Made by a program: the position numbers and the translations under genes | Notes under the pieces: generated by a model | Database searches by the model: none | What the model saw: the letters and a program-made list of their open reading frames with translations, nothing else | Told to the model about the DNA's origin: nothing | Source: a virus | Length of the DNA stretch: 64,000 nucleotides | Virus record (IMG/VR): IMGVR_UViG_3300037472_000016 | Span: 1 to 64,000 of that record | Reading direction: 5' to 3' (one strand) | In this document: in pieces, positions 313 through 49,126 of the stretch | Position numbering within the stretch: the first letter of the stretch is position 1 | Layout: the number at the start of each line of letters is the position of its first letter

Positions 313-341
313 AGTCTATATGCTGGGAAACGATTTGTCTA
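313..341 (-). promoter_or_regulatory. leftward promoter, cassette type
   Basis: On the minus strand: -35 TAGACA (336-341), 17-bp spacer, -10 TAGACT (313-318). The spacer carries TTCCCAG (CTGGGAA on plus), and CGTAAT follows the -35 on the upstream side. The same layout recurs at 1841, 2913 and 3323. It drives the gene at 91-240. Confidence 0.7.
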
Positions 342-361
342 GTCGTAATGGGTGTTATTTG

Positions 362-387
362 GTAACAGTTTAGTAACAAGCCCGGCC
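362..387 (+). promoter_or_regulatory. paired TAAC 11-mers plus CCCGGCC
   Basis: GTAACAGTTTA and GTAACAAGCCC are exactly adjacent 11-bp units followed by GGCC. The pair sits about 20 bp upstream of the -35 of the leftward promoter at 313-341. It is a candidate regulator site; equivalents occur at 2961, 3372, 5189, 5736, 8441 and 25134. Confidence 0.55.
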
Positions 388-1840: not shown

Positions 1841-1869
1841 AGTCTATATCCTGGGAAAGATTTTGTCTA
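1841..1869 (-). promoter_or_regulatory. leftward promoter, cassette type
   Basis: Minus strand -35 TAGACA (1864-1869), 17-bp spacer containing TTTCCCAG, -10 TAGACT (1841-1846). A CGTAAAG box follows at 1872-1878, and an ATAACGCTGCC/CGGCC element at 1890-1905. Drives 1817 and 1683. Confidence 0.7.
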
Positions 1870-1908
1870 GTCGTAAAGGTCTCTATTTGATAACGCTGCC
1901 CGGCCAGA

Positions 1909-2912: not shown

Positions 2913-2941
2913 AGTCTAACATTCTGGGAATAAAAGCACAA
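2913..2941 (-). promoter_or_regulatory. leftward promoter, cassette type, leaderless start
   Basis: -35 TTGTGC (2936-2941), 17-bp spacer containing TATTCCCAG, -10 TAGACT (2913-2918). Upstream lie CGTAAAG (2946-2952), ATAACGTTTCT/ATAACGTACCC (2961-2982) and GGCCCC. Confidence 0.7.
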
Positions 2942-2993
2942 CCTACGTAAAGAGTATTTGATAACGTTTCTATAACGTACCCGGCCCCTCCCC

Positions 2994-3322: not shown

Positions 3323-3351
3323 ATCTTAACATTCTGGGAATAATTAAGCAA
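3323..3351 (-). promoter_or_regulatory. leftward promoter, cassette type, leaderless start
   Basis: -35 TTGCTT (3346-3351), 17-bp spacer with TATTCCCAG, -10 TAAGAT (3323-3328). CGTAAAG at 3356-3362, then GTAACGGTTTG/GTAACGGGCCG at 3372-3393. Confidence 0.7.
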
Positions 3352-3396
3352 CCTACGTAAAGGCTTTCTATGTAACGGTTTGGTAACGGGCCGGGC

Positions 3397-3422: not shown

Positions 3423-3947
3423 CTAAATTGCGCTACCCCGAATAACAATCCAAATAAGGGCTTGAATTGTCCGATTAGTCATTCCCGTTTTACGAGCAAT
3501 AACACTAACCGCCTCAGACATTTCGCGGTATTGCGTTTTATTAGGAGAATCCGAATTGACTAATGCTGCACGCATCATCCAGATATCAATAACAATTGCA
3601 TCCTCATCGCCTGCAATAGCACGAGCGAATGCATTAGTCTTAGGGCCACGCAATGCGTCAAATCCATTAGTAATAGCTTCATTAGCCATACGGATATTGT
3701 TAGGCAAGCCACGGACTTCTAAGCCTAATGAGAATGCAATGGCTTTCGACACGTTGGATGCCCAACGCTCACGAGGTGAGAATGCAGAAACTACACTGGC
3801 ACCAACCTCTACGCTGACATTTAGGTTCTCTGCCACTTCACGAGCTACGTTCTCAGCATCGTTATACCAAGTGGATGCATCTTCAATCTGTCCGAGGGTA
3901 GCACGAGCAACCAAGGCAGAGAATCGGTCGGTGTAGATATCAATCAT
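3423..3947 (-). CDS. HhH/DNA-glycosylase-like phage protein, 174 aa
   Basis: By far the largest leftward gene. N-terminal helices contain a WY-NDA segment, then VVSAFSPRERWASNV (48-65), a LRGPKTNAF motif (about 98-107), and AIVIDIWMMRAA (about 116-127). It ends in a helical region with VIARKTGMTNRTIQAL that looks helix-turn-helix-like. The 'A.LSPr..We.N...A' and 'GPKt.aF..al.Gd...v..D.w..ra' pattern recalls HhH-GPD glycosylase-like proteins found in actinophages. Catalytic residues cannot be asserted. It could repair or edit modified bases, or just bind DNA. AAAGGG lies 8 nt before the ATG. Confidence 0.7.
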   Translation of the reverse strand: MIDIYTDRFSALVARATLGQIEDASTWYNDAENVAREVAENLNVSVEVGASVVSAFSPRERWASNVSKAIAFSLGLEVRGLPNNIRMANEAITNGFDALRGPKTNAFARAIAGDEDAIVIDIWMMRAALVNSDSPNKTQYREMSEAVSVIARKTGMTNRTIQALIWIVIRGSAI

Positions 3948-3973
3948 GAGGTTTTCCCTTTCGTCGTACCCTT

Positions 3974-4003
3974 AGTCTAATGCATAGAATTAGAAAAAGT
4001 CAA
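3974..4003 (-). promoter_or_regulatory. leftward promoter of the glycosylase-like gene
   Basis: -35 TTGACT (3998-4003), 18-bp spacer, -10 TAGACT (3974-3979). The two 11-bp CTGGGA units (4018-4039) follow directly upstream. Confidence 0.65.
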
Positions 4004-4017
4004 CCTAAAAAAGAAAG

Positions 4018-4126
4018 CTGGGATAAAGCTGGGAATCTTCATAAACAGCCTTAAAGACTTGACATTTATGATAGGATGCCCGGCCCCTCACAGGTAATTG
4101 GCAGCTAGCTCACAGGCTAATCACAG
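4018..4126. repeat. 11-bp units in both orientations
   Basis: Two plus-strand units CTGGGATAAAG/CTGGGAATCTT (4018-4039) are followed by four exactly contiguous minus-strand units at 4083-4126. Read on the minus strand the four are CTGTGATTAGC, CTGTGAGCTAG, CTGCCAATTAC and CTGTGAGGGGC. CTTAAAG lies at 4050-4056 and GCCCGGCC at 4078-4085. No gene is seen in 4004-4128. Confidence 0.7.
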
Positions 4127-4128
4127 AG

Positions 4129-4278
4129 TCAGTTGGGAACGTCATATCCCCATTTGGCTAATTTTTCTTGCATAACGCAAATCTGCCTACGCAATTGCCT
4201 AGCACTAACCATTTCGTCTTTATCAGAATTGGCAACTGTCCAATTGATAATGTATTCAAGCATTTCATATTCAGTCAT
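4129..4278 (-). CDS. hypothetical protein, 49 aa
   Basis: MTEYEMLEYIINWTVANSDK... with a helical Arg/Gln core (SARQLRRQICVMQEKLAKWG). AGGAA lies 7 nt before the ATG. It follows 4288-4440 by 9 nt and is the last gene of a five-gene leftward run starting near 4834. No family recognised. Confidence 0.7.
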   Translation of the reverse strand: MTEYEMLEYIINWTVANSDKDEMVSARQLRRQICVMQEKLAKWGYDVPN

Positions 4279-4287
4279 TGATAATTC

Positions 4288-4440
4288 CTATTCTGGTAAT
4301 TCATAAGTCTTTAGAAGAAACTCACAAAATTCAATTCGGCTTATAAACCAATCTGTGCTAGGCGTACCATTATCAACAAATGACTTATTTGCAGCGATAA
4401 TGTTTAGAAGGTCGGCCTGCGTTAGTATAAACTTTTCCAT
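4288..4440 (-). CDS. hypothetical protein, 50 aa
   Basis: MEKFILTQADLLNIIAANKSF... ends FCEFLLKTYELPE. It is predicted to be mostly helical and soluble. A GAGAG element precedes the ATG. No motif recognised. Confidence 0.65.
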   Translation of the reverse strand: MEKFILTQADLLNIIAANKSFVDNGTPSTDWFISRIEFCEFLLKTYELPE

Positions 4441-4467
4441 TGTGCTCTCTCTTTCTTTGATTCTGAT

Positions 4468-4545
4468 TTAGCAATAAGGTATGCTGCAAATGCTAAACGG
4501 TATAAACAATGCAATTACCAATAACACGATAAACAAATACTTCAT
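4468..4545 (-). CDS. 25-residue membrane peptide
   Basis: MKYLFIVLLVIALFIPFSICSIPYC: one hydrophobic helix with two Cys near the end. The ATG overlaps the stop of 4542-4685 (ATGA), which is the main reason to call it. It could be a lipidless anchor peptide; no function can be assigned. Confidence 0.5.
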   Translation of the reverse strand: MKYLFIVLLVIALFIPFSICSIPYC

Positions 4546-4685
4546 GATACTAAATGTCCAAACTCTTCTGGCATATATTTAGCGGCATCAGCATAAGTGA
4601 CAATACCGTCATACTCATTACAGGTACGACAAATGTATTCCCCTGGGTCTTTGCCACAGTAAATACAAATGGTTTTATCTTCCAT
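4542..4685 (-). CDS. zinc-ribbon peptide, 47 aa
   Basis: MEDKTICIYCGKDPGEYICRTCNEYDG...: CxxC at 7-10 and CxxC at 19-22 form a four-Cys zinc knuckle, followed by a helix. It is a paralog of the gene at 6631-6750 (shared ICxxC..EYxGI..Y.DA..Y). AAAGGAA lies 7 nt from the ATG. Such ribbons usually mediate nucleic acid or protein contacts. Confidence 0.75.
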   Translation of the reverse strand: MEDKTICIYCGKDPGEYICRTCNEYDGIVTYADAAKYMPEEFGHLVS

Positions 4686-4711
4686 TTCTATTCCTTTCTT
4701 TATCACTAACA

Positions 4712-4834
4712 TTACCGAGTGGTAACGGTTAGCGCTCCCATTTCCATAAAGGTATCAATAGCAGAGTTTACTGCCCAAGGGTCAACCTCAATGCTGAGGG
4801 GCGATGCATTTGCGAACGTTGCAGTGATTTCCAT
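4712..4834 (-). CDS. hypothetical protein, 40 aa
   Basis: MEITATFANASPLSIEVDPWAV...: short and mildly hydrophobic, with no motif. The start is preceded by AAAGAGAAAATCTA. The promoter at 4865-4873 has a -10 box 31 nt upstream of the ATG. Unknown function. Confidence 0.6.
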   Translation of the reverse strand: MEITATFANASPLSIEVDPWAVNSAIDTFMEMGALTVTTR

Positions 4835-4864
4835 TAGATTTTCTCTTTCTTTTTCGTTTGATTT

Positions 4865-4873
4865 ATTCTAGCA
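4865..4873 (-). promoter_or_regulatory. extended -10 promoter
   Basis: Minus strand TGC-TAGAAT preceded by AATGTCGGTGG. The same upstream word occurs 22 nt before the -10 at 5140, indicating a shared promoter type. No -35 is needed for an extended -10. Confidence 0.55.
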
Positions 4874-4887
4874 CGTACCACCGACAT

Positions 4888-5115
4888 TTAGTCGCGGTAG
4901 CCGTAGGTATTCTCTTTGAGGGCAACGAATGCCGAATACGTGTCATTGATAGCACGAGAGACGTTTACCTTGTTTAGATCACCACGGAATGACCAGTGAT
5001 TGCAGTAGTACTCGTATTTCTGTTCTACTGTCAGGATATTAGCGTTAGCCCATTCCTGCATGTCTTCTGTGAGATTGCTGAAAGCATCTGCCACATCGTC
5101 TAGCGTTTTGTTCAT
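4888..5115 (-). CDS. hypothetical protein, 75 aa
   Basis: MNKTLDDVADAFSNLTEDMQEWANANILTVEQKYEYYC...; helical, acidic. GGAAGAGGAAA lies before the ATG. It is expressed from the extended -10 at 5140. Not recognised. Confidence 0.75.
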   Translation of the reverse strand: MNKTLDDVADAFSNLTEDMQEWANANILTVEQKYEYYCNHWSFRGDLNKVNVSRAINDTYSAFVALKENTYGYRD

Positions 5116-5139
5116 TAGATTTCCTCTTCCTTTTCCTCT

Positions 5140-5148
5140 AGCTTAGCA
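5140..5148 (-). promoter_or_regulatory. extended -10 promoter
   Basis: Minus strand TGC-TAAGCT, with AATGTCGGTGG upstream as at 4865. It lies 25 nt upstream of ATG 5115. Confidence 0.5.
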
Positions 5149-5188
5149 CGGCCCACCGACATTACCTAATCCTAGAGGCATTATTTTG

Positions 5189-5276
5189 GTAACAGTTTGA
5201 TAACGGAAAGCTGGGAATAATCTGCGAATATACGTAAAGGTGTCTTAAAGCTACCTGAGAGTTAGCTGAGCGCCCG
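5189..5276 (+). repeat. eight contiguous 11-bp units
   Basis: The units in order are GTAACAGTTTG, ATAACGGAAAG, CTGGGAATAAT, CTGCGAATATA, CGTAAAGGTGT, CTTAAAGCTAC, CTGAGAGTTAG and CTGAGCGCCCG. They follow with no gap. The array contains every box of the cassette promoters in one 11-bp register. It fills most of the gene-free stretch 5150-5330; a short AGGCG/CGCCT hairpin lies at about 5299-5314. Confidence 0.75.
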
Positions 5277-5330
5277 GCCCATTTCTGTTTTTTGTCAAGG
5301 CGACACGCCGCCTCACAGCGGATTTACAGC

Positions 5331-5477
5331 CTACATACGGGCAAGCAAATCCATTTCATTATCAATATCGATATCGTGCTGTTCTGCACAGCTATCAGAC
5401 ATATTGGTAACAATGCAAGAGTTATTGCAATAGCAACGGAAAGGGACTGCATAAGCCCAACGCTGGATGTTATTCAT
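5331..5477 (-). CDS. small Cys-rich protein, 48 aa
   Basis: MNNIQRWAYAVPFRCYCNNSC... has four Cys (CYC, C, C) and an acidic tail (HDIDIDNEMD). A weak AGG is found 10 nt before the ATG. It could bind a metal; no known family. Confidence 0.55.
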   Translation of the reverse strand: MNNIQRWAYAVPFRCYCNNSCIVTNMSDSCAEQHDIDIDNEMDLLARM

Positions 5478-5507
5478 TATATATATACCTATTCTATTAG
5501 ATTCTTA

Positions 5508-5645
5508 TTAGTTGTGGATATAAACTACCGTGGTAAACCTACCACGATTTTTACCATCGGACATTATGGATTTAGTTGGATTGCATGAGCAAGCTTTACC
5601 ATTGTGTCCGATAATGCTGCCAGACTTTACGATATGACGTTCCAT
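5508..5645 (-). CDS. small basic protein, 45 aa
   Basis: The start ATG 5645 (MERHIVKSGSIIGHNGKACSCN...) is chosen because of AGAAGAAA upstream and a good promoter at 5687. A longer frame upstream crosses the promoter. CSC plus HH may bind metal. Function unknown. Confidence 0.6.
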   Translation of the reverse strand: MERHIVKSGSIIGHNGKACSCNPTKSIMSDGKNRGRFTTVVYIHN

Positions 5646-5686
5646 GATTTTCTTCTTTCTGTTAGATTCTTTTTTGCTATGTCTAT

Positions 5687-5715
5687 AGCTTAGCATGGCA
5701 CCAGCCAGATAGCAA
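5687..5715 (-). promoter_or_regulatory. leftward promoter
   Basis: -35 TTGCTA (5710-5715), 17-bp spacer, extended -10 TGC-TAAGCT (5687-5692) on the minus strand. Drives 5508-5645 and possibly 5331-5477. Confidence 0.65.
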
Positions 5716-5735
5716 GCCCAAGCACCCCCTTTTTG

Positions 5736-5884
5736 GTAACAGATTTGTAACAAGAAGCTGTGAACAACCTGGGAACTAACTTAAAGGAGTCTTATGCTTA
5801 CCTGTGAATTACCTGAGCGCCCGGCCAAACTGTGAATATGCTGGGAATATTCTGGGAAAAACTTAACCTTATCGTAAATTTGTA
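5736..5884 (+). repeat. longest 11-bp array, 8 + 5 units
   Basis: Eight exact-register units run 5736-5823: GTAACAGATTT, GTAACAAGAAG, CTGTGAACAAC, CTGGGAACTAA, CTTAAAGGAGT, CTTATGCTTAC, CTGTGAATTAC and CTGAGCGCCCG. A 6-nt break (GCCAAA) follows. Five more run 5830-5884: CTGTGAATATG, CTGGGAATATT, CTGGGAAAAAC, TTAACCTTATC and GTAAATTTGTA. With the terminator at 5903 this accounts for the gene-free interval 5646-5957. Confidence 0.8.
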
Positions 5885-5889
5885 TTAAT

Positions 5890-5921
5890 ACAAAGCAACC
5901 GACCGACCCCTTGCGGGTCGG
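5890..5921 (-). terminator. intrinsic-like terminator of gene 5958-6053
   Basis: CCGACCC-CTTGC-GGGTCGG is a perfect 7-bp stem (5903-5921) downstream of the leftward stop at 5958. On the minus strand it is followed by the moderately U-rich TCGGTTGCTTTGTATT. Confidence 0.5.
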
Positions 5922-5927
5922 CTACAC

Positions 5928-5960
5928 CTGGGAGTTGTCTGTGAACTCCCTGTGAGCCTA
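5928..5960 (+). repeat. three 11-bp units
   Basis: CTGGGAGTTGT, CTGTGAACTCC and CTGTGAGCCTA are contiguous. The last contains the stop codon (CTA on plus) of the leftward gene 5958-6053. Confidence 0.7.
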
Positions 5961-6053
5961 GCTAACGGCTACCATATATACCGCCGTTCCGCAATTCCCA
6001 CAGGCACGGATGAAGGTAGGGTACTGGCACTTGGAGCACTTGTATTCTGTCAT
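5958..6053 (-). CDS. 31-residue zinc ribbon
   Basis: MTEYKCSKCQYPTFIRACGNCG... carries CSKC (6-9) and CGNC (18-21), a minimal four-Cys zinc ribbon. GAGGAAA is 4-9 nt before the ATG. Promoter at 6077-6106. Likely a nucleic-acid or protein adaptor; unknown target. Confidence 0.65.
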   Translation of the reverse strand: MTEYKCSKCQYPTFIRACGNCGTAVYMVAVS

Positions 6054-6076
6054 GATTTCCTCTTCTTGTTAGTATC

Positions 6077-6106
6077 AGTCTAGTCTATGACCTGCACCTA
6101 TTGCAA
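6077..6106 (-). promoter_or_regulatory. leftward promoter
   Basis: -35 TTGCAA (6101-6106), 18-bp spacer, -10 TAGACT (6077-6082); a second TAGACT overlaps at 6082-6087. Confidence 0.55.
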
Positions 6107-6126
6107 GCCATAGACCCAACTTTATG

Positions 6127-6148
6127 CTGGGAGTTTGCTGATAGCCTA
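6127..6148 (+). repeat. two 11-bp units over a stop codon
   Basis: CTGGGAGTTTG and CTGATAGCCTA; the second holds the stop of 6146-6295. An almost identical pair occurs at 6385-6406. Confidence 0.65.
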
Positions 6149-6295
6149 GGCTACCTTTACCATGCTCCATTTCTCAGCGGTATCGCTGACCAGTCGCACT
6201 CGCACGAGTCCATGAGTAGCAGGTACTATCTCAGCGATGGTACCAGTAAAGCCAGACTTAGGCGATACGTATTGCTGACCGATTGTTAGTGTCAT
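6146..6295 (-). CDS. 49-residue SH3/KOW-like protein, paralog of 91-240
   Basis: MTLTIGQQYVSPKSGFTGTIAEIV... ends VRLVSDTAEKWSMVKVA. It is aligned end to end with the gene at 91-240: PKSG, G-T/V-I-x-EI, VRVRL. A small beta-barrel is inferred. The start at 6295 has AGATAGGAAACATC upstream. Function unknown. Confidence 0.8.
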   Translation of the reverse strand: MTLTIGQQYVSPKSGFTGTIAEIVPATHGLVRVRLVSDTAEKWSMVKVA

Positions 6296-6335
6296 GATGT
6301 TTCCTATCTGTTAGATTCTTTGTCCTTGTAGTATC

Positions 6336-6365
6336 AGTATAGTCTGACTAGGGCAGACAGCGCAA
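6336..6365 (-). promoter_or_regulatory. leftward promoter
   Basis: -35 TTGCGC (6360-6365), 18-bp spacer, -10 TATACT (6336-6341), driving 6146-6295. Confidence 0.6.
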
Positions 6366-6379
6366 CTCCTAGAGCAACT

Positions 6380-6478
6380 TTATGCTGTGAGTTTGCTGAT
6401 AGCTGCTCGGTGCTGCCATAGGACTAGCGCATAGGCTAAGGTCAGCGGTACCATGATGAGAAAGAATTGCATTACCAT
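6380..6478 (-). CDS. 32-residue membrane peptide
   Basis: MVMQFFLIMVPLTLAYALVLWQ... is one hydrophobic helix and a basic tail. AGGA is 7 nt before the ATG. The 11-bp units CTGTGAGTTTG/CTGATAGCTGC (6385-6406) lie in its last codons, so the regulatory repeat is partly coding here. Confidence 0.55.
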   Translation of the reverse strand: MVMQFFLIMVPLTLAYALVLWQHRAAISKLTA

Positions 6479-6500
6479 GTCTGTATCCTATCTTGCATTA

Positions 6501-6614
6501 CTGGGAAATACCTGTGTGTAACGTAGACGCAGCCTGTGTATTGGCTGAGAGTCGGGTCGGGTCGGGTAGCCTGTAAGTTACCTGAGTGCTGCCTGGGCAC
6601 TGGCTGGGAGCCTC
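6501..6614 (+). repeat. ten 11-bp units (6 + 4)
   Basis: Six contiguous units start at 6501 (CTGGGAAATAC, CTGTGTGTAAC, GTAGACGCAGC, CTGTGTATTGG, CTGAGAGTCGG, GTCGGGTCGGG). A 4-nt break follows, then four more at 6571-6614 (CTGTAAGTTAC, CTGAGTGCTGC, CTGGGCACTGG, CTGGGAGCCTC). The fifth and sixth units overlap a GGGTC triplication. Confidence 0.75.
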
Positions 6615-6630
6615 TCACGCTCCCTTACCG

Positions 6631-6750
6631 CTATGCCGTTAGATAGTCCATAGCGTCTCGGTATCCCATGATACCCTTGTACTCACCACAGCGACGGCAG
6701 ATGGTGGATTCTACTGGCATAACGCAGAAGATGCAGACTTGTTGTTCCAT
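6631..6750 (-). CDS. zinc-ribbon peptide, 39 aa, paralog of 4542-4685
   Basis: MEQQVCIFCVMPVESTICRRCGEYKG... has CxxC at 6-9 and 18-21, then a short helix (YRDAMDYL). It shares this layout with the gene at 4542. The ribosome site is weak (AGAG). Unknown function. Confidence 0.65.
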   Translation of the reverse strand: MEQQVCIFCVMPVESTICRRCGEYKGIMGYRDAMDYLTA

Positions 6751-6812
6751 GATGTTACTCTTTTCTGTTAGATTCTTTTTTCTTGGCTATGTTCTTTTTT
6801 TCTTATAGCTAT

Positions 6813-6821
6813 AGCTTAGCA
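6813..6821 (-). promoter_or_regulatory. extended -10 promoter
   Basis: Minus strand TGC-TAAGCT upstream of gene 6631-6750; no clear -35. Confidence 0.45.
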
Positions 6822-7090
6822 CAGGTTTAGGGCCTCGCACTACCAAAATTGAAAAATAAAATAAAAACCTTTTCTCACTTATGGGGTGGTACCTGTAGTG
6901 TGCTCACTAATTAACTGTGAATTTGCTGTGAGTTTACTGTATGGTACAAATCAACAATATTTTCAGATTGTTCCCAAAATAGACTTAGCCAGATATCCGG
7001 CTGTCACATCTTGTCACAAATAAATATTTTTTCAGATTTTCAGAAATGTGTATTTTTCCGGGTATCAACAACATCCTCTTGACACAATAG
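6822..7090. other. gene-free AT-rich segment
   Basis: No gene is visible. It holds three 11-bp units at 6915-6947 (CTGTGAATTTG, CTGTGAGTTTA, CTGTATGGTAC) and a near-perfect palindrome AGCC-A-GATATC-C-GGCT (6987-7002). A direct repeat TGTCACA-TCT-TGTCACA and several TTTTCAGATT words are also present. Composition and repeats would suit an origin or a regulatory hub; neither is shown. Confidence 0.4.
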
Positions 7091-14251: not shown

Positions 14252-14518
14252 ATGACAGTTCTTAAAAAATATAATTCAGTGTCTGGCTTGTGGCAACCCG
14301 TTCAGGTGGGGGTACCAGGCGAAAATTCCACGGTACCGGGGCCAGCAGGCCCAACAGGCCCAGCAGGCCCAACGGGTGCGGCAGGCCCAACGGGTGCGGC
14401 AGGCCCAACGGGTGCGGCAGGCCCAACGGGTGCGGCAGGCCCCATATATCCACTAACAGTATCCTTGTCACTTCCCACTGGCGGTAACGACGGAGACGTG
14501 TGGATGGTTTATAGCTAA
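14252..14518 (+). CDS. short collagen-like protein, 88 aa
   Basis: The N-terminus MTVLKKYNSVSGLWQPVQVGVPG matches 10755-11507. Then follow Gly-X-Y repeats with four perfect GAAGPT-type 18-bp repeats, and a short tail PTGGNDGDVWMVYS. Compared with its paralog it has lost the beta tip, and the next gene (TAATG overlap) may supply it. AAGGAA precedes the ATG. Confidence 0.7.
   Translation: MTVLKKYNSVSGLWQPVQVGVPGENSTVPGPAGPTGPAGPTGAAGPTGAAGPTGAAGPTGAAGPIYPLTVSLSLPTGGNDGDVWMVYS
14366..14437 (+). repeat. four perfect 18-bp tandem repeats
   Basis: GGCCCAACGGGTGCGGCA repeated four times without change; each encodes six collagen residues. Identity at the DNA level points to recent slippage expansion. 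Confidence 0.85.
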
Positions 14519-15789
14519 TGGCACAATTGGTAAACGTTACCGGCTTTAATGGAACACTAACCTGGAAGCCTTCGATACCTTACGTAAAAGTTGGGGGTAT
14601 ATGGAAAGTTCCAAAGTCTATATGGAGAAAGATATCAGGTGTTTGGTATTCTGGTTTTTTGCAGGGGGGGGTTGAAGATACCACCTTTAACTTCAATACA
14701 GGCACAGAAGCAAACAGTGAGGTTAGTGCTATTGCAATCCAGACAGATGGAAAAATAATTCTAGGTGGAAGCTTTACAACCTTTAACGGAACAGTAGCAA
14801 ACAGAATTGTCAGACTCAACACCGACGGAACAAGAGATACAACATTTGCCACAGGCACAGCAGCAAATTCCTATGTTGGTGCCATTGCAATCCAGACAGA
14901 TGGAAAAATAGTTATAGTTGGAAGCTTTACAGCCTTTAACGGAACAGTAGCAAACAGAATTGTCAGACTCAACACCAACGGAACAATAGATACAACATTT
15001 AACACAGGCACAGGAGCAAGCAATTTTATTATTGCTATTGCAGTTCAGACAGATGGAAAAATAGTTATAGGTGGAAGGTTTACAGCCTTTAACGGAACAC
15101 CAGCAAATGGAATTGCTAGACTCAACACCAACGGAACAATAGATACAACATTTAACACAGGCACAGGCTCAAACGATGGTGTCCAGACAATAGCCATTCA
15201 GACAGATGGAAAAATAATTCTAGGTGGAAGCTTTACAGCCTTTAACGGAACAGTAGCAAACAGAATTGTCAGACTCAACACCAACGGAACAATAGATACA
15301 ACATTTAACACAGGCACAGGATTCAGTGCTGTTGAATTCGGTGCTTTTGCTAGTGAGATTGCAATCCAGACAGATGGAAAAATAGTTGTAGCTGGAAACT
15401 TTACAACCTTTAACGGAGCAGTAGCAAACACAATTGTCAGACTCAACACCAATGGAACAAGAGATACAACATTTGCCACAAACACAGGATTAGGTTTTGG
15501 TGACTTCGGTTCTTATGCTAGTGCTATTGCAATCCAGACAGATGGAAAAATAATTCTAGGTGGAAGCTTTACAGACTTTAACGGAACACCAGCAAATGGA
15601 ATTGCTAGACTCAACACCAACGGAACAATAGACACAAACCTTGGCTTAGGAGTAAACGAAGAATTCTTTGGTATTTTTGTCATAGCCATACAAACAGATG
15701 GAAAAATAATTCTAGGTGGAAGCTTTACGGGTTTTAGCGGAATACTAGCAAATCGAATCGTTAGGGTTGGAGGAGATATAAGAACATGA
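14518..15789 (+). CDS. delta-60 repeat beta-propeller fibre protein, 423 aa
   Basis: An N-terminal segment of about 60 residues (KVGGIWKVPKSIWRKISGVWY) is followed by seven repeats of about 50-56 residues. Each carries AIQTDGKIILGGSFT.FNG...RIVRLN.DGT.DTTF. This is the 'delta-60 repeat', a beta-propeller-type repeat of bacterial surface proteins and unusual in a phage fibre. Seven blades would close one propeller. The gene overlaps both neighbours (TAATG, ATGA). Probably carbohydrate- or surface-binding. Confidence 0.8.
   Translation: MAQLVNVTGFNGTLTWKPSIPYVKVGGIWKVPKSIWRKISGVWYSGFLQGGVEDTTFNFNTGTEANSEVSAIAIQTDGKIILGGSFTTFNGTVANRIVRLNTDGTRDTTFATGTAANSYVGAIAIQTDGKIVIVGSFTAFNGTVANRIVRLNTNGTIDTTFNTGTGASNFIIAIAVQTDGKIVIGGRFTAFNGTPANGIARLNTNGTIDTTFNTGTGSNDGVQTIAIQTDGKIILGGSFTAFNGTVANRIVRLNTNGTIDTTFNTGTGFSAVEFGAFASEIAIQTDGKIVVAGNFTTFNGAVANTIVRLNTNGTRDTTFATNTGLGFGDFGSYASAIAIQTDGKIILGGSFTDFNGTPANGIARLNTNGTIDTNLGLGVNEEFFGIFVIAIQTDGKIILGGSFTGFSGILANRIVRVGGDIRT
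14729..15750 (+). repeat. DNA-level repeats of the delta-60 blades
   Basis: The word CAGACAGATGGAAAAATA recurs about every 150-170 bp, seven times. Long stretches (GGAACAGTAGCAAACAGAAT...) are identical between blades, so the array is prone to recombination. Confidence 0.8.
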
Positions 15790-47762: not shown

Positions 47763-49126
47763 CCCAGGTGGACAGTAGGGCATTTTCTAATATCCAGGTG
47801 CGCCGTGGTACGGCAGAGCAGTGGATAGCCAAAAATCCCATTTTGCTTGTTGGAGAGTTTGGATTTGAAACATCCAGCAATCGTGTAAAGATTGGCGATG
47901 GGGAGACACCGTGGAACTCTATGCCGTATTTTTCCACTACTGGTGGTGGAGCAACGGGTCTTACAGGAGCTACAGGCTCTACAGGTCCACAGGGTGCCGT
48001 AGGCCCCACAGGACCAACAGGAGCCATAGGTCTTACAGGACCAACAGGAGCCACAGGCTCTACAGGTCCACAGGGTGCCGTAGGCCCCACAGGACCAACG
48101 GGAGCCATAGGTCTTACAGGACCAACAGGAGCCACAGGCTCTACAGGTCCACAGGGTGCCGTAGGCCCCACAGGACCAACGGGAGCCATAGGGCTAACGG
48201 GAGTCGCAGGCCCAACTGGTCCAACAGGAGCAGACTCCACGGTACAAGGTCCAACAGGCCCAGAAGGAAGCATAGGGCTAACAGGACAGCAAGGTTCTAC
48301 GGGAGCCACAGGACCAACGGGGCCTTCATTTGTTGTAGAATCGGCAACAACAACAGATTCAGGCATTGTTAAGCTTGCCACTGCTGAGGAAACACTGGCA
48401 GTTGCAGATGGTAGCTTAGCAGTTACTCCACTTTCTCTTGCTGGTTTTTTGCCTGCTGGAATGGTTTCTCCCTTTGCTGGCAGCGCGGCACCAGCGGGCT
48501 GGATGTTTTGCGACGGGCAGGCTGTTTCACGCACTGTGTTTGCAGTCTTGTTTAATTCCATCGGCACTCAATACGGCGGAGGTGACGGCTCAACCACCTT
48601 CAACCTTCCTGACATGCGGGGCCGCGCGGTCGTCGGACGCGATGCGGGCCAGTCGGAGTTTGACTCGCTCGACCAAGCGGGCGGCGCTAAGACTCATTCG
48701 CTGAGCACGATAGAGACGCCCGCTCACAGTCACACTGTGAGCGCGACGACAAGCTCGGACTCGCATACCCACACCTTCAGCGCGACGACAAGCTCAGACT
48801 CGCACAATCACACCTTCAGCGGCACGACTGACAATCATGACATTCGCGCTGGGTTCTCAAGCGCTGACGGCAGTTCAGGGTCAGGTCGAATAAGAGCAGG
48901 GTTCGAGACGAACGGGCGATACACGCAAAGTCTCTCAGGCGGTGATCATTCGCACCCTTTCAGCGGCACAACAGCGTCAGACTCGCACACGCACACAGTC
49001 AGCGGCACAACAGCGTCAGACTCGCACACGCACACAGTCAGCGGCACAACGAGCACAACGCCGACAGCTGCCGCGCACAATAATCTTCAACCGTACCGAG
49101 TGCTCAACTTCATCATCAAAACCTAA
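47759..49126 (+). CDS. collagen/collar tail fibre, 455 aa
   Basis: TTG start. Mtd-N domain ([26 protein letters not shown]...[15 protein letters not shown]) at 12-60. Collagen-type repeats follow (62-190), including three 27-residue repeats. A phage tail-collar domain is at about 235-310 ([19 protein letters not shown]..., [16 protein letters not shown]). His-rich SDSHTHT repeats (about 320-440) likely bind metal as in trimeric fibre stems. From about 48480 the DNA is G+C-rich, so the tip looks transferred. Confidence 0.85.
47950..48200 (+). repeat. three 81-bp collagen repeats
   Basis: Units encoding [16 protein letters not shown]... are nearly identical in DNA (single-base differences such as ACAGGA/ACGGGA). 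Copy number may vary between isolates. Confidence 0.8.

Follow-up and report, generated by a model that had tools for sequence, protein, structure and literature searches.

Helix-phased 11-bp arrays in a probable freshwater actinophage as candidate sites for a host PhoP-type response regulator

The small-gene module and its cassettes

We analysed a 64,000-nucleotide stretch of viral DNA (the window), positions 1–64,000 of IMG/VR record IMGVR_UViG_3300037472_000016. It contains arrays of short units repeated every 11 bp, placed either upstream of the sigma70-like promoters of small minus-strand genes or reaching into them. The whole record is 95,215 bp long and its two ends share 133 bp (132 identical), so the left edge of the window runs on into the record's far end. 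The module of very small minus-strand genes extends from ~86 kb through the end junction to ~7 kb, and its layout suggests that it is transcribed early. The terminase is ~53% identical to those of the Streptomyces phages Coruscant and Samisti12, and the module's DUF932 protein is 57% identical to those of NootNoot-like phages, whose DUF932 gene also lies in a minus-strand small-gene module at the left end of the genome. The virus is thus a low-GC (guanine plus cytosine) relative of the Stanwilliamsviridae, an uncultured actinophage that likely infects freshwater actinobacteria. It also encodes a Microbacteriaceae-like glyA, a WhiB-type regulator and nrdE/nrdF-like genes (L010:275-1546; L009:14763-15050; L009:6781-9869), and structural genes with coding tandem repeats of 18-bp, 153-bp and 81-bp units (window 14345-15637, 47963-48192).

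Three module genes serve as reference points. The DUF7178 protein recruited no relatives when used as bait in IMG/VR.
3423–3947, minus strand: DUF7178 protein gene, the largest annotated gene in this part of the module
4888–5115, minus strand: small gene (75 amino acids), downstream of array A
5508–5645, minus strand: small gene (45 amino acids), downstream of array B

All of the arrays named in the original prediction are present in the sequence, among them the run at 4018–4039 (within array I) and the inverted array (about 4083–4126). Since the genes concerned are all on the minus strand, the units must be read as TCMCAG rather than in the CTGKGA sense.
5189–5276, minus strand: array A, 8 units at an 11-bp step (GCTCAG, TCTCAG, TTTAAG, TTTACG, TCGCAG, TCCCAG, GTTAT, GTTAC), upstream of the gene starting at 5115
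5736–5823, minus strand: array B, 8 units (GCTCAG, TCACAG, CATAAG, TTTAAG, TCCCAG, TCACAG, GTTAC, GTTAC), upstream of the gene starting at 5645
5830–5862, minus strand: array C, 3 units (TCCCAG, TCCCAG, TCACAG), then CGTAAA at 5873
5928–5960, minus strand: array D, 3 units (TCACAG, TCACAG, TCCCAG), beyond a hairpin at 5902-5922
6127–6148, minus strand: array E, 2 units, upstream of the gene starting at 6053
6385–6406, minus strand: array F, 2 units, upstream of the gene starting at 6295
6501–6614, minus strand: array G, 9-10 units in two blocks with a register break between 6555 and 6571, upstream of the gene starting at 6478
6915–6947, minus strand: array H, 3 units
4018–4056, minus strand: array I, two TCCCAG units plus TTTAAG, upstream of the DUF7178 gene promoter
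4083–4126, plus strand: inverted array, TCACAG at 4088, 4110 and 4121 with degenerate GGCAGC between

Array G had been described as ten gapless units, which does not hold, as its two blocks are out of register (a 26-bp step from 6545 to 6571). The GTAAC, CGTAAAG and CTTAAAG sequences, proposed as unit variants, belong in part to a second element. Simpler cassettes are also present.
323–387, minus strand: GTTAC-N6-GTTAC, TTACGA, TTCCCAG, adjoining GGCCGGGC
1851–1905, minus strand: TTTACG, TTCCCAG, GGCCGGGC
2924–2989, minus strand: GTTAT-N6-GTTAT, TTTACG, TTCCCAG
3334–3396, minus strand: GTTACC-N5-GTTAC, TTTACG, TTCCCAG
5272–5279, minus strand: GGCCGGGC element, distal cassette boundary (others at 380, 1898, 3389, 4078 and 5819)

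In minus-strand order, a typical cassette begins with a hairpin or the end of the upstream gene, followed by GGCCGGGC and then by GTTAC/GTTAT pairs (11 bp) and/or CAG arrays. It continues with TTTACG or TTACGA, TTCCCAG ~21-22 bp on, a promoter-like hexamer pair and the start codon. On the gene strand, GTTAY-N6-GTTAY pairs number seven in the phage. The wider cassette (CTGGGAA, 21-22 bp, CGTAA, GCCCGGCC) continues left beyond window position 1 and, as the record ends overlap, into the end of the record. The GC-rich near-palindrome that bounds cassettes is GGCCGGGC here, GGGCCCGGACA in NootNoot and GGCGCCCGGCGCC in Coruscant (L117, L118), and may be part of a terminator or an operator.

Promoters were called only where they abut cassettes.
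313–341, minus strand: TAGACA-17-TAGACT, TTCCCAG in the spacer; consensus match only
1841–1869, minus strand: TAGACA-17-TAGACT, TTCCCAG in the spacer; consensus match only
2913–2941, minus strand: TTGTGC-17-TAGACT with a weak first hexamer, from reading the sequence
3323–3351, minus strand: TTGCTT-17-TAAGAT, from reading the sequence
3974–4003, minus strand: TTGACT-18-TAGACT, downstream of array I, from a consensus scan
5140–5168, minus strand: TAGGTA-17-TAAGCT with ATGTCGGTGG at the spacer start, downstream of array A, from reading the sequence
5688–5715, minus strand: TTGCTA-17-TAAGCT, downstream of array B, from reading the sequence

Periodicity, motif and the match to PhoP and MtrA sites

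The 11-bp periodicity stood up to autocorrelation. Between 3951 and 6960, self-identity at lag 11 was 931 versus 767 in 300 dinucleotide shuffles of the same region (z = 6.9), and no other lag from 7 to 24 rose above z = 2.5. Pairs of TCNCAG at lag 11 occurred 8 times in this region (0.003 expected) and not once in window 8001-64000, while CTGKGA-N5-CTGKGA was found 8 times in the whole 95-kb record and its reversed control pattern 0 times. Over 40 units, the minus-strand consensus is a 7-bp motif, T-C-(A/C/T)-C-A-G-(C/G), with a loose 4-bp spacer; the CAG core is present in 31/40 units, A at position 5 in 39/40 and C or G at position 7 in 28/40.

An 11-bp head-to-tail step is the usual spacing of the OmpR/PhoB family, whose members bind as tandem oligomers in a 7+4 bp format. 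The same unit format in the phage supports the earlier proposal of a cooperative binder on one face of the DNA, here in head-to-tail order. Within this family, M. tuberculosis PhoP binds head-to-tail direct repeats of TCACAGC whose spacer must be exactly 4 bp, and its binding is tighter to three or four repeats than to two (PMC4832192). MtrA sites have been described as GtnAcC-n5-GTnAcn in Streptomyces (PMC13189361) and as GTCACAgcg repeats in Mycobacterium (PMC5650626). The phage units match the TCACAGC-like 7-bp motif of PhoP (Rv0757)-type boxes, and the GTnACC-N5-GTnAC direct repeat of MtrA boxes is also present; similar sites are bound by other OmpR-family regulators.

The phage itself offers no obvious candidate of this kind. 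PF00486, the OmpR-type domain, gave no match at E <= 1 in the whole phage record, and the binder of the arrays is therefore most likely a host protein. Among 84 non-structural phage proteins scanned, many of them unannotated, WhiB was the only recognised transcription factor, and no ParA/ParB, other partition gene, Rep initiator or helix-turn-helix (HTH) repressor was found.

We consider it fairly probable that the arrays serve as multi-unit sites for an OmpR/PhoB-family response regulator of the host, most likely of the actinobacterial PhoP (Rv0757-like) type, with MtrA-type boxes (GTTAC-N6-GTTAC) alongside. Once phosphorylated, this regulator would occupy successive units head to tail, each protomer taking up 11 bp, so that all protomers lie on one DNA face, facing the promoter. 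It would then recruit host RNA polymerase to the sigma70-like promoters of the small minus-strand genes, tying early phage transcription to the state of a host two-component system. The match of the repeats to such binding sites suggests that the phage switches its small leftward genes on via the host's own stress-sensing proteins. What we observe is the repeat with its motif, spacing and orientation, a promoter-like context, counterparts at bacterial PhoP-type genes and no OmpR-type domain in the phage; from these we infer the binding itself, activation rather than repression, the host's identity, the early timing and which paralogue would bind.

Counterparts of both elements were found in bacterial chromosomes. 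The pair TTCMCAG-N4-TTCMCAG occurs ~50 times in 246 Actinomycetes genomes versus ~10 for a reversed control, with neighbours that include full-length regulators combining a receiver with Trans_reg_C, HlyD-type efflux genes and PhoX phosphatases. In L320, L325 and L327 the matches run on into longer arrays at the 11-bp step, made of variants that the phage also has (TCACAG, TCCCAG, TGCCAG and TCTCAG). The L327 regulator is clearly a PhoP-type protein, its score being 319 bits to solved PhoP as against 200 bits to PrrA and 149 bits to MtrA. For the second element, GTTACC-N5-GTTACC was found 45 times in 120 Microbacteriaceae genomes versus 9 for the control; the sites flank genes for NlpC/P60 and M23 cell-wall hydrolases, GDPD and alkaline phosphatase, in keeping with regulons of the MtrA and Pho kind.

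Identity between the phage GlyA and the best copies from Microbacteriaceae is 71-73%, versus 48-50% for four other small actinobacterial genomes, which makes Microbacteriaceae the likeliest host family. Small low-GC actinobacterial genomes outside this family had been considered as hosts for their TTCACAG sites and GC content, and were set aside as the GlyA identity favours Microbacteriaceae. Several Microbacteriaceae encode PhoP-type regulators at 54-57% identity. Microbacteriaceae show only looser CAG units, and when the regions directly upstream of their PhoP-type genes were read without a motif filter, 11-bp CAG arrays were present.
L342, Microbacteriaceae, upstream of a PhoP-type gene: GTTCAG-TCTCAG-TGTCAG
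L341, Microbacteriaceae, upstream of a PhoP-type gene: TCCCAG-ATTCAG-ACGCAG
L363, Microbacteriaceae, upstream of a PhoP-type gene: TCACAG-ATCCAG-GCGCAG
L340, another small genome, upstream of a PhoP-type gene: TCTCAG-CCCCAG

A paralogous PhoP-like group in Microbacteriaceae (L348, L349, L364) carries TCATAG-N5-TCATAG(A) just upstream of its own gene and possibly has a shifted specificity.

Relatives, counter-evidence and rival explanations

Relatives were 80 viral contigs (L122-L201; 35-43% GC) recruited by the DUF932 protein, and motifs were counted on the 61 that are non-redundant. Upstream of the DUF932 gene they share one promoter form, in which TTGCAT or TTGACA is followed after 17 bp by TATACT; the spacer often begins with TGTCGGTGG or TGTCAGTGG. 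For TTACG-N13..18-TTCCC, 174 occurrences on the gene strand compare with 6 on the other. GTTAY pairs at lag 11 number 118 versus 7.4 expected. There is no rise at lag 10 or 13; at lag 12 there are 42 versus 12.4, mostly on the other strand. Two further elements are strongly over-represented: the CRP/GlxR-type palindrome TGTGA-N6-TCACA (210, ~1 expected, with no excess at N5 or N7) and DnaA boxes TTATCCACA (288 versus 14.6 expected). Host global regulators seem to be built into the promoters of the relatives. More tentatively, and with slightly more doubt than conviction, we propose that this large freshwater actinophage group wires its small-gene promoters to interchangeable host global regulators, in that CRP/GlxR sites, DnaA boxes, GTTAY-type (MtrA-like) repeats and, in the present phage, PhoP-type arrays share one position upstream of the promoter and lineages swap the host sensor that gates infection.

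Across IMG/VR, the strict full-cassette pattern was found in five contigs, of which only L095 is a true relative. A triple CTGKGAA pattern matched chance minisatellites and DnaA-like arrays, plus L098, a 148.8-kb virus record of 62% GC with a long run of CTGTTCGGTAA(C)/CTGTTTCACAG units at 11-12 bp (2300-2700) that includes GTTACC-N5-GTTAC in seven steps. A separate group of contigs (L257, L277, L290) carries CAG arrays (CTCAGGAAACTCTCAGGAAACTCTCAGG and CTGTGAATTGTCTGGGAATTGTCTGGGA); there, one intergenic region holds two short 11-bp CAG arrays, a CRP-like palindrome and DnaA-like boxes.

Several observations weigh against a host PhoP-type regulator as the binder. None of the 80 closest viral contigs has the CTGKGA arrays, and CAG arrays recur only in other phages and in the weakly related L271, a phage record of 120 kb with homologues of two of this phage's small open reading frames. 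Conservation in relatives, which had been asked of the arrays, thus differs by element: it is strong in GTTAY and TTACG but patchy in the CAG arrays. Promoter-like consensus matches in the region are not in excess over shuffles, so the promoters are called from position and conservation. The strict pair TTCACAG-N4-TTCACAG shows no enrichment across 150 genomes of Microbacteriaceae, with 1 match against 1 for the control, for which reason a PhoP-type site in this family was at first disfavoured; this changed once the regions upstream of PhoP-type genes had been read. The genome with the best GlyA match, an incomplete Pontimonas metagenome-assembled genome, has no close PhoP-type regulator (best 33%). 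Since most module proteins are without annotation, an unrecognised phage DNA-binding protein is possible, and predicted phage pho boxes are unreliable without binding assays, as authors in that field warn (PMC10976474).

The main alternative is a phage-encoded protein: a DNA-binding protein of unrecognised fold would bind the arrays and repress or activate the leftward genes together, like mycobacteriophage stoperators. We regard this as unlikely. It would draw on the many unannotated small proteins, on the phage's WhiB, and on NootNoot and Coruscant, whose shared architecture with other upstream elements is what would be expected if each phage brought its own regulator. L5-like stoperators pair an HTH repressor with dispersed asymmetric sites; an HTH repressor was not detected in the 84 proteins, many of which are unannotated. 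Against a phage-encoded binder, those 84 proteins showed no HTH or OmpR-type domain and the whole record no PF00486; the motif equals one used at bacterial PhoP-type genes, and host boxes of textbook form (CRP, DnaA) stand in the same module of the relatives. Multi-operator silencing, as the original prediction put it, is likewise not supported, with no HTH repressor found among the 84 proteins scanned, and silencing at operators is less likely than activation. Another alternative, which we consider improbable, is that the arrays are decoys, many high-affinity sites that titrate the host regulator away and thereby dampen the host's response to stress, with no direct promoter role. The units per array do exceed the need for activation, one array is inverted (4083-4126) and phage DNA rises in copy number during infection, but the arrays share one orientation beside start-proximal promoter-like sites of many separate genes and often run into the promoter, which a pure decoy would not need.

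The two remaining alternatives concern replication and partition, both of which had been suggested, and share a difficulty: the arrays recur at a dozen promoters, which fits neither one centromere nor one origin. A low-affinity DnaA box array or phage-origin iterons, the 11-bp step being a 9-mer plus 2 bp, would have precedent in other phages and plasmids with 11-bp CTGTGAATAAC arrays near the DnaA consensus (L099), and L271 and relatives have many TTATCCACA boxes nearby. We hold it to be very improbable, as only 2 sites in 3951-6960 are within one mismatch of TTATCCACA, neither of them inside an array, about one-third of the units have CCCA instead of the required CACA, the arrays are dispersed over ~12 intergenic promoter sites, and no Rep or other initiator gene was recognised among the module proteins. 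As DnaA box arrays proper (TTATCCACA or TTWTNCACA 9-mers) the arrays were rejected, no unit matching TTATCCACA within one mismatch. A centromere-like partition site bound by a ParB, Omega or TubR-like protein would account for tandem direct repeats on one helix face; we give it hardly any credence, given the lack of ParA, ParB or any other partition gene among the scanned proteins and the dispersal of the sites, tied to promoters.

Significance and comparison with known systems

Should a host PhoP-type regulator indeed read the arrays, host envelope, nutrient or stress signalling would gate infection by a widespread freshwater phage group from the first minutes, and cis-elements would reveal the host regulator and host family on which an uncultured phage depends. 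The idea can be tested with single proteins and short DNA fragments. In the open-access literature on host regulators at phage promoters (most subscription journals fell outside this scope), we found no report of multi-unit response-regulator arrays of such size or number over a whole phage module.

The architecture itself has close parallels. The BE-cluster Streptomyces phages NootNoot and Coruscant (Stanwilliamsviridae) likewise have a leftward small-gene module in which each gene is preceded by a hairpin, a GC-rich palindrome, an upstream element and a promoter. Unlike the present phage, they use other upstream elements and have no 11-bp CAG arrays. In Coruscant (L118), its own upstream element, AGATGCA-N4-TACATCTA, precedes nearly every leftward gene.

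The arrays resemble the M. tuberculosis PhoP (Rv0757) boxes, TCACAGC-N4-TCACAGC, in their 7-bp motif, 4-bp spacer, head-to-tail order, promoter location and use of more than two units (PMC4832192). They differ in being phage-borne, in reaching 8-10 units, in their looser motif (TCMCAG, TCTCAG) and in being mixed with GTTAC and TTTACG, and here binding is a prediction only. The phage GTTACC-N5-GTTAC pairs share with MtrA boxes the 11-bp step and the position upstream of promoters (PMC5650626, PMC13189361); they differ in lying beside CAG arrays and in being repeated at many promoters, and their binding, too, is predicted only. A precedent is found in the cyanophages S-PM2d and P-SSM2, whose pho boxes are read by host PhoB, so that phage genes come under the control of a host regulator from this family through sites in phage promoters (PMC10976474). 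Those boxes are single and serve few genes (PMC10976474), in contrast to the multi-unit arrays across a whole actinophage module described here; if our reading is correct, the cyanophage pho-box idea would be carried over from a handful of auxiliary genes to an entire module of promoters.

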